Origin: Actinomycetota bacterium
Lineage (GTDB): Bacteria; Actinomycetota; UBA4738; HRBIN12
Assembly: GCA_040881665.1 (NCBI GenBank)
Contig: JBBECT010000004.1
Span: 630,303-694,302, forward strand
Direction: 5' to 3'
DNA length: 64,000 bases
Part shown: positions 1,328 to 17,972 of the stretch, one piece after another
Layout: every line of letters begins with the position of its first letter
Position numbering within the stretch: position 1 is the stretch's first letter
The notes under the pieces: model-generated
Told to the model about the DNA's origin: nothing
Seen by the model: only the letters and a program-made list of their open reading frames with translations
The model's database searches: none
Position numbers and translations under genes: made by a program

Positions 1328-2268
1328 TGGCGCTCGGACCGCTGGCGCTCTTGCCGTATCCGTTCGACGCCACGTTCATGGAGCGCGCGCTCGTCGCCGG
1401 CCTCGTCGTGGGCGTGTTCGCGCCGATCATCGGCACGTTCCTCGTGCAGAAGCGGATGGCCTTGATCGGGGACGGGATCGGGCACTTGGCCTTCGCGGGC
1501 GTGGGCGCCGGCTTGCTCGTCGGCGTCTGGCCCCTGTGGGGAGCGCTCGTGCTAGCGGTCGGCGGGGCGATCGCCGTCGAACGGATGCGCGCGCGGAGGA
1601 AGGCGTCCGGTGACCTGGCCCTCGCGTGGATCTTCTACACGGGGATCGCGCTCGGCGTCGTTCTCGTCGGCCTGGCGGGATCGCTCAACGCGAACCTGTT
1701 CTCGTACCTGTTCGGGCAGGTCCTGCTCGTGACGGGATCCGAGCTGGCGCTGATCGTTCCCCTCGGGATCGTCGTGACCGTCGTCGTCCTGGTCCTGCGC
1801 CGTCCACTGCTCGCGGTCGTGACCGACGAGGACTGGGCCCGCGTGGCGGGCCTGCCCGTCGATCTGCTGAACATGATGCTCGCGGTGCTGACCGCCGTGG
1901 CGATCGTCACAGCGATGCGTGTCGTCGGCATCCTGCTCGTCGCCGCGCTGATGGTGCTGCCGGTGGCGAGCGGCCAGCTGCTCGCCCGTTCGTTCCGTGG
2001 AACGATGGCGTGGTCGGTGGGGATCGGCATCGCATCGGTCGTCGGGGGCCTGGCGATCTCGAGACTGTGGGGGTTCGCTCCCGGAGGGACGATCGTCTTG
2101 CTCGCCTCCGCCGTGTTCGCCGTCGTCGCGTTGACGACATCGCGCCGGCCGGACCGTGCGATCAGGGCGATCGGACTCCGGGTGGACGAACCTGCGCCGC
2201 AGCACGGATCGGGACACGACTCCGATGTCTCGGGAGCCCCTGTTCTCGGCGATTCTCAGTCTGACTGA
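1327..2268 (+). CDS. znuB: Zinc ABC transporter permease
   Basis: A 313-residue polytopic membrane protein of the ABC-3 family (ZnuB/MntC type) that forms the channel of the importer. About eight hydrophobic segments are visible, starting at residues 15-35. The family signature GDGIGHLAFAGVGAGLLVG is present near residue 50, as is the conserved membrane segment AMRVVGILLVAALMVLPVA. I chose the ATG that overlaps the ATPase stop codon (TGATG) over the TTG three bases upstream. The polar C-terminal tail (about 35 residues, His- and Asp-rich) is longer than usual. The last codons overlap a perfect palindrome that is probably the operator of the next gene. Confidence 0.93.
   Translation: MALGPLALLPYPFDATFMERALVAGLVVGVFAPIIGTFLVQKRMALIGDGIGHLAFAGVGAGLLVGVWPLWGALVLAVGGAIAVERMRARRKASGDLALAWIFYTGIALGVVLVGLAGSLNANLFSYLFGQVLLVTGSELALIVPLGIVVTVVVLVLRRPLLAVVTDEDWARVAGLPVDLLNMMLAVLTAVAIVTAMRVVGILLVAALMVLPVASGQLLARSFRGTMAWSVGIGIASVVGGLAISRLWGFAPGGTIVLLASAVFAVVALTTSRRPDRAIRAIGLRVDEPAPQHGSGHDSDVSGAPVLGDSQSD
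2256..2268. promoter_or_regulatory. Perfect 6-1-6 palindrome, candidate Fur/Zur operator
   Basis: TCAGTC-T-GACTGA is a perfect inverted repeat with a single central base. It sits across the znuB stop codon and directly abuts the -10 hexamer TACACT (2269-2274) of the regulator gene. A protein bound here would block that promoter, so autoregulation by the Fur-family product is the natural reading. The short, GC-mixed half-sites differ from the AT-rich Zur boxes of model organisms, so binding is inferred only. Confidence 0.5.
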
Positions 2269-2274
2269 TACACT
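2269..2274 (+). promoter_or_regulatory. -10 element TACACT of the Fur-family gene
   Basis: TACACT lies eight bases before the ATG at 2283, which predicts a leaderless or near-leaderless transcript. There is no purine-rich Shine-Dalgarno between it and the start. The same TANNNT arrangement recurs before many genes of this window. Confidence 0.5.
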
Positions 2275-2282
2275 CCCCCGCC

Positions 2283-2720
2283 ATGGCAGCCAGCGACCTC
2301 CACACGATCGTCGGCGCGCGCCTCCGGACTGCGGGTCAGCGGTACACGAGCAAGCGTCGTGTGCTGGTGGAGATCCTCGAGCGCGCTCGTCAGCCGGTGT
2401 CGATCCCCGACATCCTGCGTTCGCGCAGGGGATTGGCGCAGAGTTCGGTGTACCGGAACCTCGCGGCGCTCGAGCAGGCGCACGTCCTGCGCCGAGTCGT
2501 CACGGGCGAGGACTTCGCGCGCTTCGAGCTGTCCGAGGATCTGACCGAGCACCATCACCACCTCGTATGCTCGAACTGCGGCACCGTGCAGGACGTCACG
2601 ATCCCCCAGCGCCTCGAGCGCAGCATGGAACGCGCGCTCGATGAGATCGCCGAGGGAACCGGGTTCACCGCGGTGAGCCATCGGCTCGACCTGATCGGCA
2701 CCTGCAAGGCCTGCGCCTGA
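2283..2720 (+). CDS. zur: Fur-family metalloregulator, probably Zur
   Basis: A 145-residue Fur-family repressor. A winged helix occupies residues 10-80, with recognition helix around AQSSVYRNLAALE (52-64). It is followed by the metal-sensing hinge with the His run HHHH (90-93), the first CxxC (C96, C99 in LVCSNCG) and a second CxxC at the C-terminus (C141, C144 in TCKACA). The two CxxC pairs form the structural zinc site of this family. Its position directly behind znuABC makes zinc sensing (Zur) the best call. Fur, Mur or PerR cannot be excluded from sequence alone. It is likely autoregulated through the palindrome at 2256-2268. Confidence 0.85.
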   Translation: MAASDLHTIVGARLRTAGQRYTSKRRVLVEILERARQPVSIPDILRSRRGLAQSSVYRNLAALEQAHVLRRVVTGEDFARFELSEDLTEHHHHLVCSNCGTVQDVTIPQRLERSMERALDEIAEGTGFTAVSHRLDLIGTCKACA

Positions 2721-2728
2721 CACGCGTT

Positions 2729-2760
2729 CGCCCGCCGGACACGACCGTCGGTGTCGGGCG
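2729..2760. terminator. Imperfect hairpin between convergent genes
   Basis: CGCCC (2729-2733) pairs with GGGCG (2756-2760), and GACAC (2738-2742) pairs with GTGTC (2751-2755), with a four-base bulge on the left and an eight-base loop. It lies between the convergent stops of the regulator and the YcgQ-like gene, so it may terminate both. There is no T tract. Confidence 0.4.
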
Positions 2761-2766
2761 ACGGGT

Positions 2767-3516
2767 CTACGGGGAGAGGTACGCGGGGTTCGGTTCGGTC
2801 GCCGCGGTGATCGACGACTGGTCGACGATCACCTCACGGCCGAGCGGGTAGATCGTTCCGTCGACGGTGACCCACTCGTCGATCTCCCACGTGCCGGGAG
2901 GAACGTTGACGACGCGAACGGAGGCGACCGTTGCGTCCGCCACGCAGCACGAGACGATGAACCGGGTGAGGAGGAACTCGTCCGCGGGCGTACCGGGCTC
3001 CCTGTCGACGAACCCGACGAACGAGACCTGTTCACCTGCTCGCTTCGCGAGCGCCTGCTGACCCTCCTTCGAGGTCTGCGCGCCCGCGACGTCGAGCAGC
3101 GTGAGTGCTCCCTCGCCGATCTCGCTCGCCGACGCGGTGTAACCGGCGGCGGCCGCATCGCCCCGTCGCCCGGCCGCGAACGAGGTCAGCGTGGACGGCG
3201 GCAGTACGAGCGTCACCAAGACCGGGACGAGGAGCAGCCCGAGCATCCATGCCTGCCGCCGACCGAGCGGGGTGGGGTCGCGCTCCCGGGCCGTGAGCAG
3301 TCGCCCGACGGCAGCGACCGTCAACAGCACCGCGCCAACCGGAACCACCCACTCGGTGCGGCTCGACAGGTATTGCGACGAGCGGCCGCTGACGAGCAAG
3401 AACCAGAACGTGCCGGCCCACAGGGTCAGCACGATCCCCGTCGCCACCCGGTACGCGCTCCAGGTCGCATCGGAGGCCGAACGGGGCCGCACACCGTCGC
3501 CCGTCGTGGCGTTCAT
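2767..3516 (-). CDS. YcgQ-like TIGR03943 family membrane protein
   Basis: A 249-residue protein of the TIGR03943 (UPF0703/YcgQ) family, which usually accompanies an ArsP_1/YcgR permease. It has two N-terminal helices (about residues 18-38 and 48-65), a third near 82-100, and a C-terminal soluble domain. That domain holds the typical core VSFVGFVDREPGTPADEFLL followed by SCCVADA. The ATG at 3516 overlaps the permease stop by four bases (ATGA), so the two are translationally coupled. Its function is not established; YcgQ/YcgR pairs are linked to metal homeostasis in some bacteria, which fits the neighbouring zinc uptake genes. A longer in-frame upstream extension overlaps the permease and is not credible. 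Confidence 0.82.
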   Translation of the reverse strand: MNATTGDGVRPRSASDATWSAYRVATGIVLTLWAGTFWFLLVSGRSSQYLSSRTEWVVPVGAVLLTVAAVGRLLTARERDPTPLGRRQAWMLGLLLVPVLVTLVLPPSTLTSFAAGRRGDAAAAGYTASASEIGEGALTLLDVAGAQTSKEGQQALAKRAGEQVSFVGFVDREPGTPADEFLLTRFIVSCCVADATVASVRVVNVPPGTWEIDEWVTVDGTIYPLGREVIVDQSSITAATEPNPAYLSP

Positions 3517-4547
3517 CCGATCAGCACCTGGAGCCAGAGACAGGCGACGAGCACCATCGCGCCGGTCACGATCACGACCATACGCGCGAAGCCACGATTG
3601 AAGATCCCCATGTAGAGCGCCACGAGCTTCATGTCCACCATCGGCCCGAACACGAGGAACGCGAGCTGGGACGAGGGACCGAACTGGACGAACGAGGCGG
3701 CGACGAACGCATCCGATTCCGAACACAGCGAGAGCAGGAACGCCAACCCCATCATCGCCAAGATCCCGAGCACCGGCGCGTCGGCGACCCCGTTCACGAT
3801 CGACTGCGGCACGAACGTCTGCACCGCCGCCGCCAAGGCAGCGCCGACGACGAGGAACTTCGCCATGAACAGGAAGTCACCGCCCAGGTGGCCGAAGAAA
3901 CGCGGCCACCGAGCCTCGACCGGTCGCTCATCGGCTTCTTCGACAGCTTCGTGCGCCGCCAGCGGTCGCAGCAGCTCGTCCTTCGAGCGCGATCCGACGA
4001 CCCAGCCCGCCACGATCGCCACGAGGATCCCGAGCGCCGCGCGGCCGAGCACCATCGTCCACACGACGCTCCGTCCTTGGTAGGCGAAGAACGTGGACGC
4101 GAGCACGACGGGGTTCACGATCGGCGCGGCGAGCATGAAGGTCACCGCGGCGGCGGGGGACAGCCCCTTCATCGCCAGGCGACGCGCGACGGGCACCGAT
4201 CCGCATTCGCACACGGGGAACGCGACCCCGCCCAGAGCCGCCGCCGGGAGCTGCATCGGCTTCGGGAGGCGCGCGAGCCGCTCGAAGGTCGACACCGGCA
4301 CGAACACCTCGATCGTCGCCGACACGAGCGCTCCGAGGAGCACGAAGGGGAGTGCCTCGATCAGCAGTCCGCTGAACACGAGGAAGAAGTTCTGCAGCCA
4401 CGCGACCGAGTCGGGATCGGTGATCCGCAGCAGGACCGCTCCGACAGCGAGCGTCACGAGGACAGGAACCGCCGCCCGCCACGGGTGGGAGCGTTCGGGA
4501 GGGATCGGCAGGGGAGCGTGCGGCGGCGTCCGGACCGTCTGCGCCAT
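3513..4547 (-). CDS. YcgR/ArsP_1-like permease
   Basis: A 344-residue inner-membrane permease of the UPF0718/ArsP_1 family (pfam03773). About eight to ten hydrophobic segments are visible. The diagnostic loop FPVCECGSVPVARRL carries the conserved CxC pair, and a second conserved stretch SLCSESDAFVAAS corresponds to the repeated half. The ATG at 4547 overlaps the stop of the upstream gene by one base (TGATG), and the stop overlaps the YcgQ-like gene. All three minus-strand genes therefore form one operon. Substrate unknown. Related proteins export organoarsenicals or act in metal homeostasis; nothing here points to arsenic. Confidence 0.85.
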   Translation of the reverse strand: MAQTVRTPPHAPLPIPPERSHPWRAAVPVLVTLAVGAVLLRITDPDSVAWLQNFFLVFSGLLIEALPFVLLGALVSATIEVFVPVSTFERLARLPKPMQLPAAALGGVAFPVCECGSVPVARRLAMKGLSPAAAVTFMLAAPIVNPVVLASTFFAYQGRSVVWTMVLGRAALGILVAIVAGWVVGSRSKDELLRPLAAHEAVEEADERPVEARWPRFFGHLGGDFLFMAKFLVVGAALAAAVQTFVPQSIVNGVADAPVLGILAMMGLAFLLSLCSESDAFVAASFVQFGPSSQLAFLVFGPMVDMKLVALYMGIFNRGFARMVVIVTGAMVLVACLWLQVLIG

Positions 4548-5902
4548 CAGCAGAACCTCCCGAACTGGACGGCGAACCCGCCGAACGCGTCGGCGAGCAG
4601 TGCCGTCCCGTCCGGCTGACGTGATCCGAGCATCGCCTGGACCGCCGTGCCCGAGCCCACGCCGGCGGCGACCAGCGCCTCCTGGTCGAGGAACAGACCG
4701 CCCGGTTGCGACCACTCCACGGCAGCGGCCTCGCCCGGCACGGCGTCGTCCGCGGCGCGGATGAGCTGGTCGACCGGGATCGTCGCCCTGCCTCGCACCG
4801 GACCGGTGGCGGAACCGGTTCCTACGACGCTCACCAAGAGCCGATCGCCGCTCGCGGCGCGGGCCCGTTCCACGATCCCTCGCAGTTGGTCATCCATCGC
4901 CGGGATCGAGTCTCGCACGACGGCCCCAAGCACGTCAGGGGTCGCGTCGCCGCCGAAGCCGTCTGCGAGCAGACGCCCGGTCGCCGTCTCCGTCTCCCCG
5001 GGACGCGCGAGGGTGACCTCGTCGCGGTCGCCGACGGCGTACCAGTCGCGACCGACCAACCCGAGATCGGCGGGGTCATCGGCGACGAGGCCGATGCGGG
5101 CGGATCCGGCGAAGGGACCGTCGTACTCGAGATCGTCGGCGAACGTCGCGATCACGCTCAGGGGTGCCTCGGCGCTCCATGCGCGGGCGAGCGCGCCGCC
5201 GCGGTCGTCGTTGCGGAGCCAGGTACCGGTGATCCCATGATCGGCGGGCGTCGCCCCCGTGCCGATCGTCGTGAGCGTGGCTGCCGGGTCCAGCGGCAAA
5301 GATCCCGCATCGCCCTCCAGCGTTCCCGACCCCTCGCGCAGCAGCGAGCGCAGGAACGGCCACGCCCGCGGCTGAGCCTCGAGCTCGGCCGACCCGATCC
5401 CCTTCAACGCCACGACGAGGACGAGCCGGGCTCGTTCGGTCGAGGTGACCGCGATCGGTTCGCCCGGATGCACGCCCGGGAACGCCCAATCGGAACCGAG
5501 CGCCTCCAGCAGCGTCGGGGCCACCGCGTCCAACCCGGCACCGTCGGGGATCGGAGCGTTGGGATGCACTCCCGTTCCCGCGAACACGATCGGGACGCGG
5601 CCCGACGGTGGGTCGTTGGCCGACGGCCACGCGGGGTCCACCCCTCGCTGGCCGCCGCCGTCCCACCCCCAGAGCACCGGCTCGCCGGGAACCGTCAGCA
5701 CGTCCGGGGACCGTTGCTCCCGGTACCCCGCGGCGAGGTCTTCGCGCAACGGGGCCGGGAGCGAACAGAAGGGGACCTCGGAGGAGGCCGCCGCCGGTTC
5801 GTCGCAGCTGCTGCCGATACACGCGATGTCGAGCGCGATCGCCGGCAGGGCGACGACCGCGAGCACGGTGAGCAGGGGGACCAGCCGAGTTCGGTACGTC
5901 AC
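4547..5902 (-). CDS. Degenerate alkaline-phosphatase-superfamily protein, probable pseudoenzyme
   Basis: A 451-residue exported protein that is a divergent relative of the five enzymes on the opposite strand. After a signal anchor it shows the same permuted N-terminal block (VPIVFAGTGV, then VAPTLLEALG, then GEPI), and then ATLTTIGTGATPADHGITG, equivalent to the enzymes' nucleophile region. The first metal-ligand Asp of VWD is replaced (LVVALKG), the P-S/T-x-T nucleophile motif is lost (SLPLDPAAT), and no D-x3-H or DHG ligand motif is recognisable. Catalysis is therefore unlikely. It keeps the Cys near the mature N-terminus (PFCSLP) and a C-terminal Cys. I chose GTG 5902 because TAGCGT lies seven bases upstream; a GTG at 5911 is also in frame. 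It heads an operon with the YcgR/YcgQ-like pair. Role unknown; a binding or regulatory partner of the enzymes is possible. Confidence 0.75.
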   Translation of the reverse strand: MTYRTRLVPLLTVLAVVALPAIALDIACIGSSCDEPAAASSEVPFCSLPAPLREDLAAGYREQRSPDVLTVPGEPVLWGWDGGGQRGVDPAWPSANDPPSGRVPIVFAGTGVHPNAPIPDGAGLDAVAPTLLEALGSDWAFPGVHPGEPIAVTSTERARLVLVVALKGIGSAELEAQPRAWPFLRSLLREGSGTLEGDAGSLPLDPAATLTTIGTGATPADHGITGTWLRNDDRGGALARAWSAEAPLSVIATFADDLEYDGPFAGSARIGLVADDPADLGLVGRDWYAVGDRDEVTLARPGETETATGRLLADGFGGDATPDVLGAVVRDSIPAMDDQLRGIVERARAASGDRLLVSVVGTGSATGPVRGRATIPVDQLIRAADDAVPGEAAAVEWSQPGGLFLDQEALVAAGVGSGTAVQAMLGSRQPDGTALLADAFGGFAVQFGRFC

Positions 5903-5909
5903 TCCGACC

Positions 5910-5915
5910 ACGCTA
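5910..5915 (-). promoter_or_regulatory. -10 element TAGCGT, leaderless
   Basis: On the minus strand TAGCGT is followed by seven bases and then GTG at 5902, the spacing expected for a leaderless mRNA. It would drive the pseudoenzyme-permease-YcgQ operon. Confidence 0.45.
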
Positions 5916-6098: not shown

Positions 6099-7769
6099 AT
6101 GAAACACCGTGCCCGCCTCGCTGCCGCCGTCGCGACCCTGTCCCTCGCTGCCGCCGTGCTCGTCGCCGCGCTCCCGGGATCGCAGGCGGCCGGACAGTCG
6201 GCGACATCCCAGCGTCGGGTCGAGGAGGCCGCCTGCGACGTCCCGCACCAGTACCTGTTGCGAACGTGGCGCGGATGGCGCCCCGATAGGGGTCCGGAGA
6301 TCGCGATGATCCCGATCTACCCGAACTACGTGGGTGCCGGTCTGCCGCACGTCGGTCCGTGGCCCTACGTGCAGGAGGTTCCGATCCTCTGGTACGGCCC
6401 GGGACATGTCCCCCCGACCGGTGAGGTCAAGCGCCCGGTCACCGTCGCGGGCATCGCTCCCACGATGGCCGAGATGCTCGACCAGCCGTTCCAGGCGATC
6501 GACGGCCAGCCACTTCGCGAGGCGCTCGGCCGAAAGGGGGAGCGCGCAGATCCGCCGAAGCTCGTGGTGACGATGATCTGGGACGCGGCGGGCAACAACG
6601 TTTTGAAGGAACATGCCGGCGCCTACCCCTACCTCGAGTCGCTGAAGGACGCGGGCGTCTGGTACTCGAACGCCACGGTCGGGTCGAACCCCACCTCGAC
6701 CGCGCAGATCCACACGACGATCGGCACGGGCGCGTTCCCGCGCAATAGCGGACTCGTCGGTCACCGGCTGCGGATCGGCGAGGAGATCACGACGCCGTGG
6801 TCGCAGGGTCCCGCCTTCATCAACGTTCCGACGTTCGCGGACATCTACGATCGGGCGAACGGCAACGAACCGGTCGTCGGGCTGATGGGAACGGTCTCGA
6901 TCCACGCCGGCTTGATCGGACACGGGTCGATGTGGGGTGGCGGCGACAAGGACATCGTGATGCTGCGCCAGGCCGTCGACGGCGACACGATCGGCGAAGA
7001 GACGTTCCAATGGAACCTGCCGGGGTCGCTGCAGGCGTACTTCGAGTTCCCCGAGTACGCGAACGCCGTCCCCGGCTTCGAGGCCGACGTCGACGAGATG
7101 GACCGTGCCGACGGCAAGCTCGACGGGAACTGGCGGAACAACGAGATCGCGCCCCTCCTGGACGGGTTCGACACGCCCGCGCGCCCGATCTATCAGGAGC
7201 GGGTGCTCGAAGAGCTGATCGAACGCGAGGGCTTCGGGCAGGACGACGTCACCGACCTCTTGTTCGTGAACCACAAGATCATCGACTACATCAGCCACGT
7301 GTGGACGATGAACAGCCCCGAGATGAACGATGCGGTCAAGGCCGAGGATCGAGCCCTCGAGACGCTCGTGACCTTCCTCAACGAGCACGTCGGGAAGGAC
7401 GAATGGGTGCTTGCGCTCACCTCGGACCACGGATCGATCCCCGACCCGAAGATCTCGGGTGCCTTCCAGATCTCGACGACGCCGATCGCGGCGGGGATCA
7501 ACATCGAGTTCGATACCGATGGGGACGAGAACTACATCGTCGAACTCGTCCAGCCGGTCGGGATCTTCATCGACGAAGAGGAACTCCGTCAGAACGGCCA
7601 CACCCTCGCGGAGGTTGCCGAGTACGTGATGGATCTCACGAAGGCCGACGTCGCGGCGGAGGGTGTGAACGTCCCGGCGGGTCAGGCGGACGATCGGGTG
7701 TTCGAGGCCGCCTTCCCGATGGAGTCGATGACCGACGTCCCGTGCCTGCCGGAAGCGCGTCGCGGCTGA
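6099..7769 (+). CDS. Exported phosphodiesterase/AP-superfamily enzyme, array member 1
   Basis: A 556-residue secreted enzyme (signal peptide about 1-31). It is expected to hydrolyse phosphate esters with two metal ions, as in nucleotide pyrophosphatase/phosphodiesterases. NPP-type ligands are all present but in permuted order. LPHVGPW (H84) and the fold's usual C-terminal block (VPILWYGPG, then IAPT, then DGQPL) come first. D162 (MIWD), nucleophile T199 in PTSTAQIH (H205), D396-x3-H400 (DYISH) and D443-H444 (SDHG) follow. Nothing like the HxGPW/VPxxxYGPG/APT block follows SDHG. Cys46 and a Cys eight residues from the C-terminus are conserved in all copies and could form a disulfide joining the termini. 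This is the only copy with Thr as nucleophile. ATG 6099 was chosen because the signal peptide starts there. Substrate unknown. Confidence 0.85.
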   Translation: MKHRARLAAAVATLSLAAAVLVAALPGSQAAGQSATSQRRVEEAACDVPHQYLLRTWRGWRPDRGPEIAMIPIYPNYVGAGLPHVGPWPYVQEVPILWYGPGHVPPTGEVKRPVTVAGIAPTMAEMLDQPFQAIDGQPLREALGRKGERADPPKLVVTMIWDAAGNNVLKEHAGAYPYLESLKDAGVWYSNATVGSNPTSTAQIHTTIGTGAFPRNSGLVGHRLRIGEEITTPWSQGPAFINVPTFADIYDRANGNEPVVGLMGTVSIHAGLIGHGSMWGGGDKDIVMLRQAVDGDTIGEETFQWNLPGSLQAYFEFPEYANAVPGFEADVDEMDRADGKLDGNWRNNEIAPLLDGFDTPARPIYQERVLEELIEREGFGQDDVTDLLFVNHKIIDYISHVWTMNSPEMNDAVKAEDRALETLVTFLNEHVGKDEWVLALTSDHGSIPDPKISGAFQISTTPIAAGINIEFDTDGDENYIVELVQPVGIFIDEEELRQNGHTLAEVAEYVMDLTKADVAAEGVNVPAGQADDRVFEAAFPMESMTDVPCLPEARRG

Positions 7770-9451
7770 GCCGCCGCGGGTCGAGCCTCGTGGCGGCGCT
7801 GGTGCTCCTCGTCGCTGGATCGGCCGCGTGCACCGCCTCGGGATCCGATCCCGATGCGCGCACGGCCCGCGATCGGCCGTCGCCGGATCGGTTCGTGCCT
7901 GCGAGAGACACCGACCGTGCCTGGGGCCTGGCGGCGTGTGAGGTGCTCCCGGCGGTCTGGCTCGAACGGATCGCTCGCGGGTACCGCGCGGACCGCAGCG
8001 GAGAGGTGCAGATCGTTCCTCTGTATCCGAACCAGATCGATCCCGGACTTCCGCACAATGGACCGTGGGACGAGGTGCAGGACGTGCCGTTGTTCCTCTA
8101 CGGCCCCGGCGTGATCCCTGCGGTCGGGCGCGTCGAGCGACCGGTGACGGTGGCCGACGTCGCGCCGACGGTCGGGGCGCTCGCGGACAGTGGCTTCGAG
8201 GCCCCCGACGGCCATGTGCTTCACGAGGCGGCCGACGGCCGCCGGAGTCCGCGACTGGTGGTCGTTCTCGTCTGGGACGCGGTCGGGCGCGGCGTGCTGG
8301 ACCGCCACGCGGATGCGTGGCCGACGCTGGCATCGCTGATCGACGACGGCGCGTGGTACGAGCGGGCGTCGGTCGGTTCGTCGCCGTCGCAGACCGCGCA
8401 GGTGCACGCCACGATCGGGACGGGTGCCTTCCCGCGGACCCACGGGCTGATCGCGCATCGGTTCCGCGTCGACGGCGAGCTGGTCACGCCGTGGGGCGAG
8501 GGAACGGCGTTGCTCGAGGTCCCCACGGTCGGCGACATCCTCGACATCGAGCACGACAACGCGGCCCAGGTCGGGTTCGTCGGCACCCTGATGATCCACC
8601 TCGGGCTCCTCGGCCATGGGAGCGACTTTCCGGGCGGTGACGCCGACCTCGCGGTGCTCCGGGAGCAGGAGGGCGCGCAGACACTCGGTGCCGAGGGCGA
8701 GGAGTGGAACCTGCCGGCGCCGGTCGCGGGCGCGTTCGCCTTCCCGTCCTGGGTCGCGCGCGTCGAGCCCGGTCTGGCGCACGACGTCGACGCGCTCGAT
8801 CGCGCGGACGGTTCCCTCGACGGAACGTGGCGCGGCAACGACATCGCGACCCTGCTCGACGGATTCGACACGCCGGCTCGTGCGCCCTACCAGCAGCGGG
8901 TGATCGAGGCGGTGATCGAGCGGGAGGGGTACGGCGCGGACGAGGTCACGACGGACGTCCTGTGGGTCAACGAGAAGTTCACCGACTACGTGAGTCACGT
9001 GTGGTCGGTCGACAGTCCCGAGATGGCCGACGCCGTCCGTTCGCAGGACGACGCCCTCGCGCGGCTCCTCGCGTTCCTCGATGAGAAGGTCGGGCGTGGG
9101 CGGTGGGCGATCGCGCTCACCGCCGATCACGGATCGGTGCGTCCCCCGCCCTCGACCGGCGGAGCCGTTCTGTCCTCGGTGGCGCTGCAGGCCACGCTCG
9201 AGCGCCGGTTCGGCGAGGGTGTCGTCGAGCTCGTGCAGGACACCCAGCTCTTCTTGGACACCGATCGCCTGGAACGCGACGGGGACACGGCCGCGGACGT
9301 CGCCCGGACGGTCCTGGCGCTCACCGCCGGGGAGCTCGCCCCCCCCGACGCCGATCTGGACGCCGATCTTCGGAACGCTCCTGCCTTCGAGGCGGCGTTC
9401 CCTTCGGGAGCGCTCGAGGCGATGCCCTGCATCAGCGAGGCCGCCGCATGA
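7742..9451 (+). CDS. Exported phosphodiesterase/AP-superfamily enzyme, array member 2
   Basis: A 569-residue paralogue of member 1 with the same permuted motif order: H105 (LPHNGPW), VPLFLYGPG, VAPT and DGHVL, then D179 (LVWD), nucleophile S216 in PSQTAQVH, D-x3-H in DYVSH, and ADHG. It is the most divergent active-looking copy: the MWGGGDKD motif of its siblings is FPGGDAD here. Its N-terminus looks like a lipoprotein signal (VLLVAGSAAC, Cys30), unlike the others. The GTG at 7742 gives a complete signal peptide and overlaps the preceding gene by 28 bases; GTG 7790 is an alternative. The stop overlaps member 3 by four bases. Same inferred chemistry; substrate unknown. Confidence 0.83.
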   Translation: MPAGSASRLSRRGSSLVAALVLLVAGSAACTASGSDPDARTARDRPSPDRFVPARDTDRAWGLAACEVLPAVWLERIARGYRADRSGEVQIVPLYPNQIDPGLPHNGPWDEVQDVPLFLYGPGVIPAVGRVERPVTVADVAPTVGALADSGFEAPDGHVLHEAADGRRSPRLVVVLVWDAVGRGVLDRHADAWPTLASLIDDGAWYERASVGSSPSQTAQVHATIGTGAFPRTHGLIAHRFRVDGELVTPWGEGTALLEVPTVGDILDIEHDNAAQVGFVGTLMIHLGLLGHGSDFPGGDADLAVLREQEGAQTLGAEGEEWNLPAPVAGAFAFPSWVARVEPGLAHDVDALDRADGSLDGTWRGNDIATLLDGFDTPARAPYQQRVIEAVIEREGYGADEVTTDVLWVNEKFTDYVSHVWSVDSPEMADAVRSQDDALARLLAFLDEKVGRGRWAIALTADHGSVRPPPSTGGAVLSSVALQATLERRFGEGVVELVQDTQLFLDTDRLERDGDTAADVARTVLALTAGELAPPDADLDADLRNAPAFEAAFPSGALEAMPCISEAAA

Positions 9452-11118
9452 GGACTAGGGGTGCGCGACCGCTCGTCATGGCCGGGGCGATCGCCCTCGT
9501 CTCGGCCGTTGCCGGCCTCGCTGTTCGACCGGCAGCGGGAGCCGAGGCGTTCGACCACGGGGCGGCGCGACGGCGGGCGATCCGATCTGCGTGCGCGCTT
9601 GCACCCGAGCAGCTCCGCCGGATCGAGGACGGGATCCGCGCCGATCGCAGCGGCGAGATCCAGGTCGTCCCCGCGGAGCCCGACTACCTCGACGGCGGAC
9701 TGATGCACGCCGGACCCTGGGACTACCTCCAAGAGGTGCCCGTGCTCTGGTACGGACCGGGCTTCGTCCGTGACGCGGGCCGGGTCGACCGACGGGTCAC
9801 GGTCGCCGATATCGCGCCGACGCAGGCCGCGTTGCTCGGTTTCGACGGCTTCGATGCCCCCGACGGCAGCACGATGACCGAGGCGCTGCCCTTCGACGCC
9901 GGGGAGGACCCACCCAAGCTCCTCGTCACCCTCGTCTGGGACGCCGCGGGGCGGAACGTGCTGACCCGTTGGCCGGACAGCTGGCCGACGCTCGCGGGGC
10001 TGGTCGAAGACGGCACCTGGTACGAGCGCGCGGAGGTGGGGTCCTCACCTTCGAATACGCCACCGATCCACGCCTCGATCGGGACGGGCGCGTTCCCCGA
10101 CCACCACGGCATCGTCGACGTCTTCATGCGCGTCGGCGACGGCCCGCTGATCCAACCGATGAACCTCGGTCCGGGCAACCTCCTCGAGCCCACGCTCGCG
10201 GACGTCTACGATCGGGCGTTGGGCAACGAACCGGTGGTCGGCGCGGTCGCCACCTTGTCGGGCCACCTGGGATTCCTCGGGCACGGATCGATGTGGGGTG
10301 GCGGCGACAAGGACGTCGCGGTCACGAGGGAACTGATCGATGCCGCGGTCGGTGGGTCGGAGGGTCCGCAGTGGAACCTCGCGCCCTCCATGGCGCGCTG
10401 GTACCGGTTCCCTGCCTACGTCCTCGACGTCGGGGGCTACGGGGCCGACGTCGATGCGGTCGATCGCTCCGACGGCGAGTTCGATCGAGCGTGGCACGGC
10501 GATCCCTTCACGCAGCTGAACGCAGGGTTCGATTCTCCTGCGCGCATCCCGTACCAGACCCGCGTGATCCAGCAGGTGCTGCGGCGCGAGGGGTTCGGCC
10601 GGGACCGGGTCCCGGATCTGCTGTTCCTCAACTACAAGGCCATGGACCGGGTGGGTCACCTGTTCTCCGTAGATTCACCACAGATGCGGGAGACCTTGGA
10701 GGCGCAGGACGAGTATCTTCGCGTGCTGATCGACGAACTCGATCGAACGGTCGGCGAAGGGGACTGGGCGATGGTGATCACCGCGGATCATGGGCACCAG
10801 TTCGATCCGGAGGTCAGCGGGGCGTTCCGGATCTCGATCTCCACGACCCAGGATCTGTTGGAAGAACGGTTCGACGACGGGGACGATGTGAAGCTGTTCG
10901 ACAAGGTCAAGCCGACGCAGGTGTGGCTCGACGAATCGGAGCTGCAGCGCAACGGGCATCCGCTGCTCGAGCTCAACGATGCGCTGTTGTCGCTGACCCA
11001 GGCGCAGACCGCCGCGTCCCCCGAGCTCGTCCACGACCCCGACGCGCTCGCGCTCGCCGCCGCGTTCCCGACGGATCTGCTCGACGAGCTCCCCTGCGCC
11101 CCCGAGGGCGACGCGTGA
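9448..11118 (+). CDS. Exported phosphodiesterase/AP-superfamily enzyme, array member 3
   Basis: A 556-residue paralogue. Signal peptide about 1-32 (cleavage near AGAEA). The mature N-terminal Cys49 is followed by the permuted block: GIRADRSGEIQVVP, H87 (MHAGPW), VPVLWYGPG, ADIAPT and APDG. The nucleophile half follows: D165 (LVWD), S202 in PSNTPPIH with H208, MWGGGDKD, NYKAMDRVGH supplying D-x3-H, and ADHGHQ. The segment RADRSGE..VVP followed by HxGPW and VPxxxYGPG closely resembles the C-terminal end of classical PafA-type phosphatases, which is the clearest sign of permutation. Start ATG overlaps member 2 (ATGA); stop overlaps member 4 (GTGA). Confidence 0.85.
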   Translation: MRTRGARPLVMAGAIALVSAVAGLAVRPAAGAEAFDHGAARRRAIRSACALAPEQLRRIEDGIRADRSGEIQVVPAEPDYLDGGLMHAGPWDYLQEVPVLWYGPGFVRDAGRVDRRVTVADIAPTQAALLGFDGFDAPDGSTMTEALPFDAGEDPPKLLVTLVWDAAGRNVLTRWPDSWPTLAGLVEDGTWYERAEVGSSPSNTPPIHASIGTGAFPDHHGIVDVFMRVGDGPLIQPMNLGPGNLLEPTLADVYDRALGNEPVVGAVATLSGHLGFLGHGSMWGGGDKDVAVTRELIDAAVGGSEGPQWNLAPSMARWYRFPAYVLDVGGYGADVDAVDRSDGEFDRAWHGDPFTQLNAGFDSPARIPYQTRVIQQVLRREGFGRDRVPDLLFLNYKAMDRVGHLFSVDSPQMRETLEAQDEYLRVLIDELDRTVGEGDWAMVITADHGHQFDPEVSGAFRISISTTQDLLEERFDDGDDVKLFDKVKPTQVWLDESELQRNGHPLLELNDALLSLTQAQTAASPELVHDPDALALAAAFPTDLLDELPCAPEGDA

Positions 11119-12770
11119 GCGCGCGCCGTCTGCGTGCGGGCGCACGTCGCATCGTGCTGCCGTCGGTGGTGGTGGCCAGCCTCGTGACCGGTCTCGCCGT
11201 CGCCGCAGGGGGCGGCGCGTCCGCCGCGCAGGACGGGTTCGACGAGATCGCGTGCTCGCTGCCGCACGAGCAACTCGTGCGCGTCTACAACGGAACGCAC
11301 CCGACGCGCTCGGGCGACGTGATCGTCGTTCCGGACGAGCCGAATTTCCTGGGGTCGAACTTCCCGCACTCGGGTCCGTGGGACTACCTGCAGGAGGTTC
11401 CGATCTTCTGGTACGGCCCCGGCCACGTCCCGCCGGTCGGAGAGATCCCGGGGCGGGTGACCGTTGCCGACCTCGCACCGACCTTCGGTGAGCTCGTCGG
11501 GTACCCCTTCGATGCTCCCGACGGGACGCCGCTGCCCGAGATCGTCAAGGGCGCCCGCGGTACCGAGGCTCCTCGCCTGATCGTCACCCTCGTCTGGGAC
11601 GGCGGCGGTCGATCGGTGCTCGAGCGATGGCCGGACGAATGGCCCTACCTGAAGTCGTTGCTGCCCCAGGGCGCCTGGTATCGCAACGGGGAGGTCGGCT
11701 CATCTCCGTCGATCACACCCGCGACCCACGCGACGATGGGCACGGGCGCGTTCCCTCGGCTGACCGGACAGGTCGACAGCGAATTCCGGCTCGCCGACGG
11801 ACTGGCCCGCAGCGGACAGCTCGGTCCGGCGTTCCTGCAGGAGCCGACCTTCGCCGACCTCTACGATCGTGCGCTGGACAACGAGCCGATCGTCGGCATC
11901 GTCGCGAGCGTCACCTGGCATCTGAACATGATGAGCCACGGCGCGATGTGGGGTGGCGGCGACAAGGACATCGCGATCCTGCGCACGACCGAGGGCGACG
12001 AGGGCGCCGAGGGGACCGCCTGGAACCTCCAGGGGAAGAACCGTCCCTTCTACGATCTGCCCGCGTACGCGAACGATGTGCCCCCCGTCACCGCCTACAC
12101 CGAAGCGCTCGACCGGCAGGACGGCAAGCTCGACGGCAAGTGGCGGCAGGACTCGATCGAACAGCTGCACGAGGGCTTCGACACGCCCGCGCGCGTTCCG
12201 TACCAGACCGCGGTGGTCGAGCAGCTCCTCCAGAAGGAGGACTTCGGCTCGGATGAGGTCACCGACCTGCTGTACCTGAACTACAAGATCATCGATCACA
12301 TCGGGCATGTGTACAGCGCGAGCAGCCTCGAGATGAAGGACACGATCCGCTGGCAGGACGACGGCTTGCGCGAGCTCGTTCGGATCCTCGACCGGGAGGT
12401 CGGCAAGCGGAAGTGGCTCTTCGTCCTCACCTCCGACCACGGCCATCAGTTCGACACCGAGGAGACCGGCGCCTTCGGTGTCGCGCCCGGTGCGCTCGAA
12501 GCGGACCTCAACGTGGAGTTCGACGACGGGGACGACACCCCTGCGGTGCTGAAGGTCCGAACGAGCCAGGTGTACATGAACCGGGATGAGGTTGCGGACG
12601 CCGACGCGACGATCGACGACGTCGCACGGTTCACCGGCGCGTACACGAAGGAACAGGCCGCTCCCGATCTCAGCGCCGTCCCCGCGAGCGAGCGCTCCGA
12701 CCGGGTGTTCGACGCCGTGTTCCCGATGGAGACCCTCGACGACCTCGCCTGCCTGAAGGAGAACCGATGA
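11115..12770 (+). CDS. Exported phosphodiesterase/AP-superfamily enzyme, array member 4
   Basis: A 551-residue paralogue starting at a GTG that overlaps the previous stop. Signal peptide about 1-38 (cleavage near ASAAQ). Conserved residues are Cys47, H85 (FPHSGPW), VPIFWYGPG (95-103), ADLAPT and APDG, then D162 (LVWD), S199 in PSITPATH (H205), MWGGGDKD, NYKIIDHIGH (D-x3-H) and SDHGHQ. The N-terminal stretch NGTHPTRSGDVIVVPDEP closely matches the sequence that precedes the last metal-ligand His in unpermuted family members. It is followed with a four-base overlap by member 5. Inferred: zinc-dependent phosphate-ester hydrolase acting outside the membrane; substrate unknown. Confidence 0.85.
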   Translation: MSARRLRAGARRIVLPSVVVASLVTGLAVAAGGGASAAQDGFDEIACSLPHEQLVRVYNGTHPTRSGDVIVVPDEPNFLGSNFPHSGPWDYLQEVPIFWYGPGHVPPVGEIPGRVTVADLAPTFGELVGYPFDAPDGTPLPEIVKGARGTEAPRLIVTLVWDGGGRSVLERWPDEWPYLKSLLPQGAWYRNGEVGSSPSITPATHATMGTGAFPRLTGQVDSEFRLADGLARSGQLGPAFLQEPTFADLYDRALDNEPIVGIVASVTWHLNMMSHGAMWGGGDKDIAILRTTEGDEGAEGTAWNLQGKNRPFYDLPAYANDVPPVTAYTEALDRQDGKLDGKWRQDSIEQLHEGFDTPARVPYQTAVVEQLLQKEDFGSDEVTDLLYLNYKIIDHIGHVYSASSLEMKDTIRWQDDGLRELVRILDREVGKRKWLFVLTSDHGHQFDTEETGAFGVAPGALEADLNVEFDDGDDTPAVLKVRTSQVYMNRDEVADADATIDDVARFTGAYTKEQAAPDLSAVPASERSDRVFDAVFPMETLDDLACLKENR

Positions 12771-14437
12771 GTCCCCACCTCCCTCGGCGCCACCGGCGCC
12801 TCGTCCTGCTCGTGGTGACGGCGTCCGTGGCGCTCGCCGGCGTGCTTCCGTCGATCGCGGCAGAGAGTCAGGACGCGTTGTCGGATCGGCTGTGCTCGAC
12901 GGTCGACCCCGAGCTGCTGCGCCGCGTGCGCGACGGTGTCGACCTGGCACGCAGCGGGCAGGTGCAGTTCATCGCCGAGGAGCCGAACTTCGTCGACGGC
13001 GGTCTGACGCACGCGGGGCCGTGGGGTTACGTGCAGGATGTGCCGCTGTTCCTGTACGGATCGGACTACTTCAAGCCCGGGACCTACGAGCAACGGACCA
13101 CACTCGCCGACATCGCCCCGACCCAGGCGGAGCTGCTGGACTTCCCGGCCTTCCGGGCGCCCGACGGCCGGGCTCTGACCGAGGCGATGCAACCGAACGA
13201 CCGTCGCCCGATGCCGAAGCTGGTCGTCACGCTCGTCTGGGACTCGGCGGGGATGGATGTCTTGAGCGAGTGGCCGAAGTCCTGGCCCTACCTGAAGTCG
13301 TTGCGCAAGGACGGAGCGTGGTTCACGAACACGATCGCCGGCGCTTCCCCGTCGAACACTCCCGTGAGTCACGCCACGATCGGCACGGGAGCGCTCCCTT
13401 CACGGCACGGGTTCACCGACGAGTTCATCTTCCTGAACGACAAGCTGCAGAAGCCGAACGAGAACGGTCCCGGGTTCTTGATGGAGCCGACCTTCGCCGA
13501 CATGTACGACGCGTCGAACGGCAACGAGCCGATCGTCGGCGTGATCGCCACCCTCTCGGCGCACGTGATGATGATGGGTCACGGGAACATGTGGGGCGGG
13601 GGCGACAAGGACCTCGCCGTTACCCGGGAGAAGGAGGACGCCGAAACCGGCGGTGCCGAGAGCGTCACCTGGGGGATGACGACCGACATGGCCCCCTTCT
13701 ACAGGTTGCCGCAGTACGTCAACGGACTCGGCCCGATCACGCCGTTCAACGAGGAGCTCGATCGCGCGGACGGCAAGGACGACGGGAAATGGCGCCAGAA
13801 CGATATCGCGCAGTACGCGAACGGCTTCGACACCCCTGCGCGCACGCCGTACCAGACCCAGCTCGTGAAGGAAGTGGTCACGGAGGAAGGGTTCGGCAAG
13901 GACGATGTCACCGATCTGCTGTTCCTGAACTACAAGGCGATCGACACGATCGGCCATCGGTTCAGCGCGAACGGCATCGAGATGTCGGACGCCGTGAAGA
14001 CCCAGGATGACGATCTGAAGCAGCTCGTGTCGTTCCTGGACGCGGAGGTGGGGAAGGACCGATGGGCGATGGTCCTCACGTCCGATCACGGGACGAACCA
14101 GGACCCCGCGAAGACCGGTGCGTTCCAGATCTCGATCGACCAGCTCGAGACCCTGGTGATCGAGGAGTTCGACGATGACGACGACGTCCCGGTGATGCTG
14201 CGGATGCGGCCGACGCAGGTCTGGCTCGACGTGGCCGAGCTCGAGCAGAACGGGCACACGATCGAGGAGGTGGCCGCGCGCATCGATGCATTGACCCAGG
14301 CAGAAACGGTGAAGCCGACCTTGGCGCCCGCGCCGGAACCGGGCGAACGAGTGTTCTCGGCCGCCTTCCCGTCGTCTATCCTGTTCGAGCTTCCGTGCCT
14401 GCCCGGCGCGCGCGGGGGAGCGGAACCGGGCGACTGA
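12767..14437 (+). CDS. Exported phosphodiesterase/AP-superfamily enzyme, array member 5
   Basis: A 556-residue paralogue and the last of the array. Signal peptide about 1-32. Key residues are Cys43, H82 (THAGPW), VPLFLYGSD (the usual GPG is GSD here), ADIAPT, D159 (LVWD), S196 in PSNTPVSH with H202, MWGGGDKD, NYKAIDTIGH (D-x3-H) and SDHGTN. A 67-base gap separates it from the GT-C/MFS fusion gene, with no obvious terminator, so the fusion gene may be part of the same transcript. Like the others it ends with a conserved Cys (LPCLPG) near the C-terminus. Confidence 0.85.
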   Translation: MSPHLPRRHRRLVLLVVTASVALAGVLPSIAAESQDALSDRLCSTVDPELLRRVRDGVDLARSGQVQFIAEEPNFVDGGLTHAGPWGYVQDVPLFLYGSDYFKPGTYEQRTTLADIAPTQAELLDFPAFRAPDGRALTEAMQPNDRRPMPKLVVTLVWDSAGMDVLSEWPKSWPYLKSLRKDGAWFTNTIAGASPSNTPVSHATIGTGALPSRHGFTDEFIFLNDKLQKPNENGPGFLMEPTFADMYDASNGNEPIVGVIATLSAHVMMMGHGNMWGGGDKDLAVTREKEDAETGGAESVTWGMTTDMAPFYRLPQYVNGLGPITPFNEELDRADGKDDGKWRQNDIAQYANGFDTPARTPYQTQLVKEVVTEEGFGKDDVTDLLFLNYKAIDTIGHRFSANGIEMSDAVKTQDDDLKQLVSFLDAEVGKDRWAMVLTSDHGTNQDPAKTGAFQISIDQLETLVIEEFDDDDDVPVMLRMRPTQVWLDVAELEQNGHTIEEVAARIDALTQAETVKPTLAPAPEPGERVFSAAFPSSILFELPCLPGARGGAEPGD

Positions 14438-14504: not shown

Positions 14505-17500
14505 ATGGCGTTGACGAAGGACGCCCCAGCGCAGCGCGATGCCGCCGCGGTCGCCGGAACGGGCCCCGGACGGATCTGGAGCGCCCCGTGGGTGCTGATC
14601 GCGCTGACCGCGGTCCTGCTGACCTTCCTCGCGTGGGGCTTCATCGACGATCCGACGATCAGCGCCCCGACCCGCGATCCGGCCTGGTACACGTGGCGCG
14701 CGAACGTGGTCTTCGAGGACGAGCCGGTCAGGATCGTCGAGGAGTGGGGCCCCTTCAGCGCCTTCTCCGGCGGCTACCGCGTGACGGTTCCGATGTTCGG
14801 CGCGCTGATGCGCGGCGTGGGCGGCGTCGAGACCTTCCAGTTCAGCGGCATCCTGATGATCGGTATCCCGGTGCTCGCCGGCTTGGCGATGGGCGCGTTC
14901 GGCTATCGAACCAAGAAAGATCCTGCCCTGATCCTGCTGACGTTGTTGGCGGCGGCCGGGTTGTTCCTCACGACGCCGTACGTCGGTTACCTCGACAACA
15001 TCTTCGTACTGTTCGTCCTCGCGTCGATCCTCGCGTTCGTCCCGAGCGCGCAGACGTCCTGGGGGGCCCGAGCCGCGTGCTTCCTGCTCGGGATCCTCGC
15101 CGCCTTCACGCACCCGACGACGTGCGTGCTATTCGGGTTGTCGTTGCTCGCGGTGTTCGGGTGGCGTGTGCTGACGGCTCGGTTCCGATTCGGCGACGCT
15201 CTTCGCCGGCACGGTCCTGCGCTGATGTCCGTCGGGTTCGGGATGGTCGTCGGGCTCGCGATGTGGGTCGTCGGCATATGGGGGAAGCCGGCGTCGCTCG
15301 TCGAGGCGGCGCTCCCACCGCCCTACGAGGGGACCTTCTTCAACGATCGGCAGCTCGACTGGATCCTCAGCATGAAGCCGCTCGTCACGTTCACGCTCGC
15401 GACGATCGCGGTCGTCGCCACGATCGCGATCTCACGACGACGTCGCGAACCGGCCGACACCTACAGCGTCACCTCGATCTGGTTCCTGCTTCCGTACGCC
15501 GCGATCCTCGCCACGCCGCTCAACGCTCAGGCGACCGGGGACGAGAACGGCTTGCCGCTCTACCGGTTCTTCAACGCCACGACCGCGATCATGGTCTTGG
15601 CGGGTCTCGGGGCGTGGTTGTCGATCCGGTGGCTCTCCGGTCGCCCGGGGACTCAGAAGACGCTCGGCGTCCTCGCCTCGTCCGTGATCGTGGCTGCCCT
15701 CGGCTGGGTGTTCGTGAGCGGCTGGCAGACGTGGATCAAGCCGGACAACCAGTGGATCAGCCAGGAGACGCGTGTGGCGCTCTCGTCGGCCAACGAGATC
15801 GCGGAACGCGTGGACGATGTGCCCCTCGCGATCATCGGGAACTACGCGACCGAGCCGCAATCCTACGGATGGGGCAAGACGTTCACGAACGTGTTCCGCA
15901 CGACGCTGCCGGGAGAGGACGCCGAGCGGGTCGGAACCTACTGGGGCACGCTCGACAACTTCATCGCCGGCGAACCGACGAACTTCGAGAAGGACCGTGT
16001 GCCGACCGTCACGAACGACGAGCGGACGATGTCGGAGGGCTACCTCGCCCACCTGACCGCGGTGGCGGAGGAGCAAGGGGCCCCGCCCGTCGTCTTCGTC
16101 GTACGCGAGTTCTCGCTCGGGGAGAACAAGGAGCTGTTCCCCGAGGATGAGTCGTGTCTCGACGAGGGCACGGTGCCGCGGGAGGAGATCGTTCCGCTCG
16201 GGTGTGACATCGGCATCGTGTCCGTCGACGGTGTCACGACGACACCTTCCGACGAGGTGCTCGAGGCCGCTCGGCAGGCCGAGGTCGCGCAGCAGGCCGA
16301 GTTCGACGACCACGAGGGCCCGTTCGGGAACCCCGGTCACCTGCTCCAGGTCCTGCTCGCGCTGTTCCTCGTGTTCGTGCTTCCGGGTCTGCTCGCGGCT
16401 CGGTTCTTCGAGCTCGAGGGGTTCTTCACGAAGTTCAGTCTCGTGCCGGCGATCTCGGTGATGCTGACCCTGCTCACGGCGATCGTCGTCGCCGCGGTGT
16501 GGCGCGGACCGTTCGATGCCGCGCACGGATGGACCGCCGTGATCCTCGCGTCGGCGATCGGCGGCGCCCTCACCCTGTGGCGCGTCGGGATCATGAAGCC
16601 GTTCCAGGCGATAGCTCGATTCTTCAACGGGATGTTCGGCCTGTTCTCCGAGCGCGACTTCGCCACGCTGATGGGTGTCCAGTTCTTGATCCAGGCCGCC
16701 GACGGGGTGCTCCGAGGCACGATCGGCAAGTCGATCGGGTTCGGCGGTGAGGAGGGCTTCGACGTCACCACGGTGCCGTCGCCTCGCTACCTGCTCGCGG
16801 TCGTGCTCGCGCTCTACCTGCCCTACACGATCATCAGCCCATTCATCGGCGTGTTCATCGACCGCTTCGAACGCCGGCGGGTGCTCACCGTGTCGGCCGC
16901 CGCGACTGCGGTGCTCGCCGTCGTGATCGCGGCGCCGGTGTTGCTCTCGATCGGGGACGAGTCCTCGGAGGGCAAGGTCGGCGTCACGATCGCGTTGATC
17001 GTGGCGGTGCTGATCATCCAGGCCTGCGTGCGCATCATGCTCGCGGTGAAATCGGCCGCCTTGCCCGGGGTGCTTTCGGGCAGGGACCTGCTGCAGGGCA
17101 ACGGTCTGTCCCAGGCCGGTGGAGCGTTCTTCCAGATCGTCGGGATCGCGTTCGGTCTCGGAGCGAGCGCGTTCCTGCCGTCGTGGATCCTGATCGTGAT
17201 CGGTTCCGGCATCCTCGCGATCTCCGTGCTCGTCGCCCGGCAGATCCGGCGGATGGAGGTCACGAAGCACACGGCGACCTTCCGCGAAGAGGCCAAGCGT
17301 GTCGTCTCGGACATGATCGACGGACTGAAAGAAGTGGCGGCGCGCAAGCCGGCGGCGATCGGACTCGCCTCGTTCCAGATGTTGCGCTACCAGTTCTGGG
17401 GTTTCACGCTCTTCGTGTTCGCGCTCTACGCGTCCGAGCTGGCCAAGGGTGAGGACGCGAGCCTCGTCTCCCTCGCGCTGACCGGCGTCGGAGGGCTCCT

Positions 17501-17972
17501 TGGCGGCGTGCTCGGGATGATCCTCGCGCAGAAGTACAAGGACAAGATCCCGCCGATCCGGTTGCTGCTGTCGGCGATGTTCCTCCTCGGTGCCGGAGCC
17601 TTGGTGTTCGGGGGCTTCCTCGAGCTGTGGAGCTTCGGCTTGATGCTGTTCTGCGGGTTCCTCGGATTCTTCGTCGGGAAGATCTCCGCGGACACGATCG
17701 TTCAGCAGTCGATGCCCGACGACTTCCGCGGCCGCGCGTTCGCGCTGTTCGACATCGCCTACAACCTCGGATTCGTGATCCCGGCACTGATCCTGTTCTT
17801 CCTCTACGACGACTCCCGCGTCGCGGCGATCCTCGTCGGATCGGGCGCGGTCTTCCTCGTGCTGACGGCCCTCGTCGCGCGGTGGGCGGGGAAGCACTCG
17901 TCGGAGTTCCAGACGCAGGACGATCTGCACGACGTGGAACACGGAGCCGTGACCCAAGAGCCGACCGGCTGA
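14505..17972 (+). CDS. GT-C-like membrane protein fused to an MFS transporter
   Basis: A 1155-residue polytopic protein with two unlike halves. Residues about 28-400 hold roughly ten helices with a GT-C flavour, including an Asp in the first outer loop (RDPAWYTWRAN, D58) as in lipid-linked sugar transferases. Residues about 410-605 form an extracytoplasmic domain. Three helices follow (about 610-690). From about 705 the protein is a major facilitator: motif A-like FIDRFERRRVL near 780-790, SGRDLLQGNGLSQAGG near 865, and a helix set to about 1135. I read it as glycosyltransferase plus lipid or sugar transporter in one chain. The start has GAAGGGA upstream. Whether it forms part of a surface-glycolipid or phosphodiester pathway with the five preceding enzymes is inference. 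Confidence 0.75.
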   Translation: MALTKDAPAQRDAAAVAGTGPGRIWSAPWVLIALTAVLLTFLAWGFIDDPTISAPTRDPAWYTWRANVVFEDEPVRIVEEWGPFSAFSGGYRVTVPMFGALMRGVGGVETFQFSGILMIGIPVLAGLAMGAFGYRTKKDPALILLTLLAAAGLFLTTPYVGYLDNIFVLFVLASILAFVPSAQTSWGARAACFLLGILAAFTHPTTCVLFGLSLLAVFGWRVLTARFRFGDALRRHGPALMSVGFGMVVGLAMWVVGIWGKPASLVEAALPPPYEGTFFNDRQLDWILSMKPLVTFTLATIAVVATIAISRRRREPADTYSVTSIWFLLPYAAILATPLNAQATGDENGLPLYRFFNATTAIMVLAGLGAWLSIRWLSGRPGTQKTLGVLASSVIVAALGWVFVSGWQTWIKPDNQWISQETRVALSSANEIAERVDDVPLAIIGNYATEPQSYGWGKTFTNVFRTTLPGEDAERVGTYWGTLDNFIAGEPTNFEKDRVPTVTNDERTMSEGYLAHLTAVAEEQGAPPVVFVVREFSLGENKELFPEDESCLDEGTVPREEIVPLGCDIGIVSVDGVTTTPSDEVLEAARQAEVAQQAEFDDHEGPFGNPGHLLQVLLALFLVFVLPGLLAARFFELEGFFTKFSLVPAISVMLTLLTAIVVAAVWRGPFDAAHGWTAVILASAIGGALTLWRVGIMKPFQAIARFFNGMFGLFSERDFATLMGVQFLIQAADGVLRGTIGKSIGFGGEEGFDVTTVPSPRYLLAVVLALYLPYTIISPFIGVFIDRFERRRVLTVSAAATAVLAVVIAAPVLLSIGDESSEGKVGVTIALIVAVLIIQACVRIMLAVKSAALPGVLSGRDLLQGNGLSQAGGAFFQIVGIAFGLGASAFLPSWILIVIGSGILAISVLVARQIRRMEVTKHTATFREEAKRVVSDMIDGLKEVAARKPAAIGLASFQMLRYQFWGFTLFVFALYASELAKGEDASLVSLALTGVGGLLGGVLGMILAQKYKDKIPPIRLLLSAMFLLGAGALVFGGFLELWSFGLMLFCGFLGFFVGKISADTIVQQSMPDDFRGRAFALFDIAYNLGFVIPALILFFLYDDSRVAAILVGSGAVFLVLTALVARWAGKHSSEFQTQDDLHDVEHGAVTQEPTG

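Follow-up and report, generated by a model that had tools for sequence, protein, structure and literature searches.

A tandem array of PafA/PhoK-like alkaline-phosphatase-superfamily proteins with an apparently circularly permuted chain in an Actinomycetota genome

Organization of the array and its neighbourhood

The window, i.e. the whole 64,000-nucleotide stretch of DNA that was analysed, carries five related genes in tandem on the forward strand (6099–14437), each of which overlaps the next (Table 1). The products of genes 1 to 4 share 42–48% identity with that of gene 5 (alignment A1). Pfam PF01663 scored above its cut-off in all five proteins, covering the core only, while the NCBIfam PafA model (NF042991) matched them in three scattered stretches. 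Assignment to the PafA equivalog was rejected, as the five proteins scored 92–122 bits against a cut-off of 650. Class I sulfatases were likewise rejected, as the nucleophile site of the window proteins reads P-[ST]-x-T-x3-H and not the formylglycine motif C/S-x-P-x-R. A hydrophobic signal-like stretch opens each gene, and the five products are likely exported or secreted.

Table 1. Coordinates of the array genes, their key residues and the neighbouring features
Feature	Position	Strand	Remarks
znuA (partial), ABC ATPase, ABC-3 permease, FUR-family regulator	2..2720	+	
DUF1980 protein and ArsP_1 (PF03773) permease	2767..4550	-	Kept adjoining the degenerate homologue
Degenerate, divergent permuted homologue (P0005)	4547..5911	-	Just upstream of the array; catalytic residues lost
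Array gene 1 (P0001)	6099..7769	+	Cys pair C46/C549; ligands H84, D162, D396, H400, D443, H444; nucleophile T201; K393
Gene 1 His block (PafA C-terminus equivalent)	6234..6527	+	Alignment A2
Array gene 2 (P0007)	7742..9451	+	GTG start within the end of gene 1; Cys pair C66/C563; H105, T218, K412
Gene 2 His block	7937..8233	+	
Array gene 3 (P0006)	9448..11118	+	Overlaps the gene 2 stop; Cys pair C49/C550; H87, T204, K397
Gene 3 His block	9592..9888	+	
Array gene 4 (P0003)	11115..12770	+	GTG start overlapping the gene 3 stop; Cys pair C47/C546; H85, T201, K391
Gene 4 His block	11253..11546	+	
Array gene 5 (P0004)	12767..14437	+	Overlaps the gene 4 stop; predicted structure m8763d817570c
Gene 5 His block, residues 43-141	12893..13189	+	Matches PafA chain positions 432-533
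Gene 5 C43 codon	12893..12895	+	Cysteine at the new N-terminus
Gene 5 H82	13010..13012	+	Equivalent to PafA H486, the last metal ligand; now near the N-terminus
Gene 5 catalytic core	13241..14089	+	D159, T198, K390 (new invariant Lys), D393, H397, D440, H441
Gene 5 C544 codon	14396..14398	+	Cysteine at the new C-terminus
1155-aa membrane protein, C-terminal MFS_1	14505..17972	+	Also follows the array in family f1 relatives

The ligand motifs of all five proteins occur in the order His block (HxGPW...ADIAPT...DG), first ligand Asp, nucleophile Thr, D-x3-H and SDHG/ADHG. An earlier reading made from the DNA letters alone (the sequence-only reading) had placed the His block ahead of the first ligand Asp and the nucleophile motif, and this could be confirmed in every array protein. 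The block motifs that it listed for all five were generally present, except that gene 5 reads VPLFLYGSD in place of WYGPG. Its count of five permuted proteins was correct for the array; a sixth full-length copy lies elsewhere in the genome, and a seventh, degenerate homologue lies upstream.

The sixth copy (protein P0008; locus L006, G000:C7:182130-183686) has hydrophobic segments near its N-terminus and contains an RRRLL stretch; it lacks the terminal Cys pair and contains internal cysteines. Its clade, whose members carry two to five internal cysteines, is found in most relatives.

The upstream homologue P0005 still has both terminal cysteines, along with two more in its N-terminal part, and it stays beside the array in several relatives, adjoining the permease and DUF1980 genes. 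ABC genes of the znu type also recur beside the array in relatives (family f1). The region 2–4550 is likely a zinc-homeostasis locus, and the metal of the bimetal site is probably zinc. The linkage could plausibly reflect zinc supply for the metal site of the array enzymes. A scan for promoters and terminators yielded no informative signal, and inverted repeats upstream of the array revealed no convincing regulator site. In the downstream membrane protein, the C-terminal MFS_1 half is fused to another multi-spanning half.

Sequence evidence for circular permutation

The permuted proteins were represented by 60 non-redundant relatives, used for profile and alignment, and compared with 41 standard-order relatives. 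PafA residue numbers correspond to the chain position plus 11, which was checked via H486 and the 5too sequence (T79S/N100A/K162A/R164A mutant).

A phmmer search of gene 5 against PDB chains matched PafA (5tj3) in three pieces in rotated order: residues 142–217, 359–444 and 43–141 of P0004 aligned with chain positions 10–87, 260–345 and 432–533, respectively. The 60-member profile was split in the same way, with positions 142–500 matching PafA residues 26–426 (chain 15–415; E 3e-33, 118 bits) and positions 41–137 matching residues 447–545 (chain 436–534; E 1.6e-13, 53 bits). PhoK was likewise matched in two swapped pieces (136–491 to 33–415; 45–138 to 452–552). Searching with the halves separately had been proposed in the sequence-only reading; the N-terminal block alone found the C-terminus of PafA at the E-value given above and that of PhoK at 6.7e-7, which excludes a chance likeness.

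When the five window proteins were rotated at about residue 150, their best single-domain score against a 41-member standard-order profile rose from 69–79 to 108–138 bits. P0008 showed no gain in the rotation test, which is a point against the proposed reading. The segment lengths were also conserved. The tail after DHG has a median of 107 residues, compared to 105 for the spacer between DHG and the His block in standard-order proteins, and the new linker joining the old ends has 9 residues; a single cut, between about PafA 426 and 447, followed by a single join is therefore enough to account for the order. As had been stated for the array proteins, none of the 60 relatives contains a further His block after DHG.

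The swapped two-piece matches, the rotation test, the segment lengths, the single predicted fold and the ligand conservation together bear out the proposed circular permutation, and the five array proteins are almost certainly circularly permuted PafA/PhoK-like chains of the alkaline phosphatase superfamily.

Predicted structure

An AlphaFold2 model of 524 residues of gene 5, built with the 60-sequence alignment, displayed a single compact fold (pLDDT 94.7, pTM 0.94), in which the His block was confidently placed (mostly pLDDT 93–99). A single fold is part of what the sequence-only reading had named as support from structure prediction. In an order-respecting structure alignment, PafA was the top match (Z 27.6, 363 residues), with model residues 113–515 aligned to PafA 24–450, followed by PhoK (Z 25.3) and then by NPPs at about 17 over the core. 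Model residues 1–112 and the PafA C-terminus remained unmatched, because a method that respects chain order must omit the rotated part of each chain. Judging from the model, the common alpha/beta fold of the superfamily appears to be present, and fold and bimetal site would be built from both halves of the chain with H82 beside the metals.

Behaviour of the N-terminal block as an independent domain, which would have spoken against the permutation, was not observed. Folded alone, the block adopted no recognisable fold. A PDB search with this model returned no match, and the lack of a recognisable PafA fragment is a point against the proposed reading. Such a result is as expected if the strands of the block need the core sheet, and it neither proves nor disproves the origin of the block.

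Active site and comparison with known enzymes

The six metal-ligand positions (D38, D305, H309, D352, H353 and H486 in PafA numbering) were invariant in the 60 permuted and 41 standard sequences, in agreement with the earlier statement that all metal ligands are kept. All 60 permuted proteins thus carry the superfamily's bimetal site, composed of three Asp and three His residues, and the nucleophile, Thr in 58 and Ser in 2, is of the Thr/Ser/Cys type of the superfamily. The His block is N-terminal in 60/60, so the usual superfamily order, with the last ligand His after DHG, is absent; this makes the family a permuted variant of the superfamily and concerns order, not chemistry.

PafA (PDB 5tj3; NF042991) is the closest known enzyme by sequence and fold, sharing the six metal ligands and the Thr nucleophile at about 20% identity. 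However, its substrate-binding residues are not preserved in the permuted chain. Of the residues that contact phosphate in PafA, N100 is Asn in 40/41 standard proteins and in none of the permuted ones (0/60). With an insertion nearby that makes the exact residue equivalence uncertain, Lys at K162, also a phosphate contact, was found in 41/41 against 0/60, and Arg at R164 in 40/41 against 11/60. Conversely, position 302, three residues before D305, is Lys in all 60 permuted proteins and Ser in 39/41 standard ones, and this invariant Lys, together with the terminal Cys pair described below, is an addition relative to PafA.

In SPAP, the combination of Thr89, Asn110, Lys171 and Arg173 forms the signature of the PafA/PhoK class, and Lys171, Arg173 and Tyr301 obstruct what in NPPs is the diester R' site (PMC3145672). 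The array family resembles PhoK/SPAP (PDB 3q3q, 5xwi) in its bimetal site and keeps the equivalent of Thr89, but the signature as a whole is lost with its Asn, its Lys and most of its Arg residues. The Thr nucleophile is shared with NPPs and type I phosphodiesterases (PF01663), as is the absence of the Lys and Arg which in SPAP obstruct the diester pocket; unlike NPPs, the array proteins are permuted, and the Asn common to NPP and SPAP (Asn111/Asn110) is not conserved. The loss of the signature Asn, Lys and Arg suggests a wider pocket and a substrate other than that of PafA. As far as residue conservation indicates, the permuted proteins are likely two-metal phosphoesterases with a rebuilt pocket. 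The preserved activity proposed in the sequence-only reading is likely, possibly with a different substrate.

The nearest standard-order relatives found were PafA-like proteins of Acidobacteriota and Massilia (within L057-L103). They consist of the same segments at the same lengths, but differ in their core1-core2-His-block order, retain Asn, Lys and Arg, and lack the terminal Cys pair.

Cysteines at the new termini

Cysteine was present at both new termini in 47 of the 60 permuted proteins and at neither in 13, and none had only one. In the 47, one Cys lies 8–10 residues before the His block and the other within the last 16 residues; 46 of them have no other Cys in the mature chain, the exception (L038) having an additional one close to its end. 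The proteins lacking the pair, 13 in all, comprise the P0008-like clade (12 rows, including L025, which is shortened by its contig) and L039. Among the standard-order proteins, only 3/41 carry a Cys within the 40 residues that precede the His block. The first Cys aligns with about PafA 443, and the last, C544, is model residue 512, adjoining model residue 515, which aligns with PafA 450; both cysteines therefore map to the cut. Their paired-or-absent pattern, and their being the sole cysteines in 46/47, imply a disulfide across the cut. A bond between the new termini that closes the cut would be the simplest reading.

Proposed model and alternative explanations

Taken together, the array proteins are very probably exported two-metal phosphoester hydrolases of the PafA/PhoK branch, circularly permuted, with a rebuilt pocket and a cut that is probably closed by a disulfide. 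The ancestral chain would have been opened at about PafA 426–447, and a short linker would connect the old C-terminus (about 545) to the old N-terminus (about 26). The metal-ligand His that once lay in the C-terminal part would then be supplied from about residue 82, giving a bimetal site drawn from both halves, while the terminal disulfide would hold the cut closed in the array members. The Thr nucleophile would attack a phosphoester, the substrate being something other than small monoesters, perhaps phosphodiesters.

The proteins could instead be non-catalytic binding proteins, for example for metals, as the degenerate neighbour seems to be. This is unlikely, since the ligand positions are fully conserved and the nucleophile remains Thr/Ser over 60 sequences, which implies catalysis; the linkage to zinc-uptake genes, the retention of the degenerate paralogue beside the array and the loss of N100, K162 and mostly R164 would nevertheless suit a binding function. 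Another arrangement, in which the block completes the site of a neighbouring subunit, either in a domain-swapped oligomer or by exchange between tandem paralogues, could draw on five co-encoded paralogues with overlapping genes and on a short linker that could permit swapping, and the monomer prediction is compatible with it. It is considered quite improbable given the very confident single-chain prediction, the existence of genomes with one detected copy (e.g. G003) and the terminal Cys pair, which fits intramolecular closure. That the block is an independent accessory domain merely resembling the superfamily C-terminus, on a truncated core without the last ligand, might be proposed because a linker separates block and core and PF01663 aligns to the core only. 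The specific matches to the PafA and PhoK C-termini, the block His conserved in 60/60, the high confidence of the block within the whole chain and its failure to fold recognisably alone render this highly improbable. That standard-order genes look permuted because of misassembly, a frameshift or faulty gene calling among tandem, overlapping genes can practically be dismissed, as the identical order occurs in 60 diverse relatives from independent assemblies, including long contigs and solitary loci, and each window gene starts with its own signal-like stretch.

The alkaline phosphatase superfamily is heavily studied and serves as a model of how enzymes evolve and of enzyme promiscuity. The sequence-only reading knew of no described family with such an order, and none was found in the open-licence literature, nor was any description of a natural circular permutation in this superfamily. 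If the circular permutation with an intact bimetal site is real, it shows what chain connectivity the fold tolerates, and disulfide closure of the permuted termini would offer protein engineers a natural example to copy. Because order-dependent profile methods break these proteins up or score them too low, annotations of the family probably go no further than partial type I phosphodiesterase. The family is multicopy in little-known Actinomycetota, mostly known from metagenomes, and may contribute to organic phosphorus turnover.

Distribution and history of the permuted family

A scan of 84,980 species by two short peptide patterns, which is not exhaustive, detected permuted members only in Actinomycetota or unclassified bacterial genomes. 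Standard-order proteins occurred in Acidobacteriota, Oxalobacteraceae, Bacteroidota, Planctomycetota and others. Within the order or class of the source genome (families f1–f3), permuted members were present in all 19 genomes searched, some being cut by contig ends, and many were found in family f5 elsewhere in the phylum. Standard-order PF01663 members co-occur in genomes with permuted ones. A quick tree constructed after computational un-permutation separated the 60 permuted from the 41 standard sequences on one branch (SH-aLRT 98) with one change, which is consistent with a single old permutation event.

The permutation may go back to a duplication in which start and stop came to lie at new points. 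Among the fetched loci, no intermediate was found in which one PafA-like domain is flanked on either side by a His block. An ORF of about 1,170 aa with the order His-like block, core, His block, core was observed in two genomes of the second carrier family (L154:4086-7619 in G027:C27, and L163 in G101:C6), where it is kept at 60% identity. It contains two AP-type, NPP-like domains, and its first His-like block is weak by profile and clear by motif. This architecture may represent a type of duplication related to the origin of permutations. On balance, we favour a history in which an old natural permutation was followed by disulfide re-closure, and then by rebuilding of the pocket with the new invariant Lys and tandem expansion, with the two-domain protein possibly displaying the precursor duplication.

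Families f4, which belongs to the class of the source genome, and f13 were without full-length permuted members, and each of the eight f4 genomes had at most one degenerate permuted homologue. Partial matches spanning the His-block/core junction were observed in these two families (G025:C123:3381-4178 and G085:C284:4713-5222), and they suggest a wider distribution for the degenerate permuted paralogue than for the enzymes.
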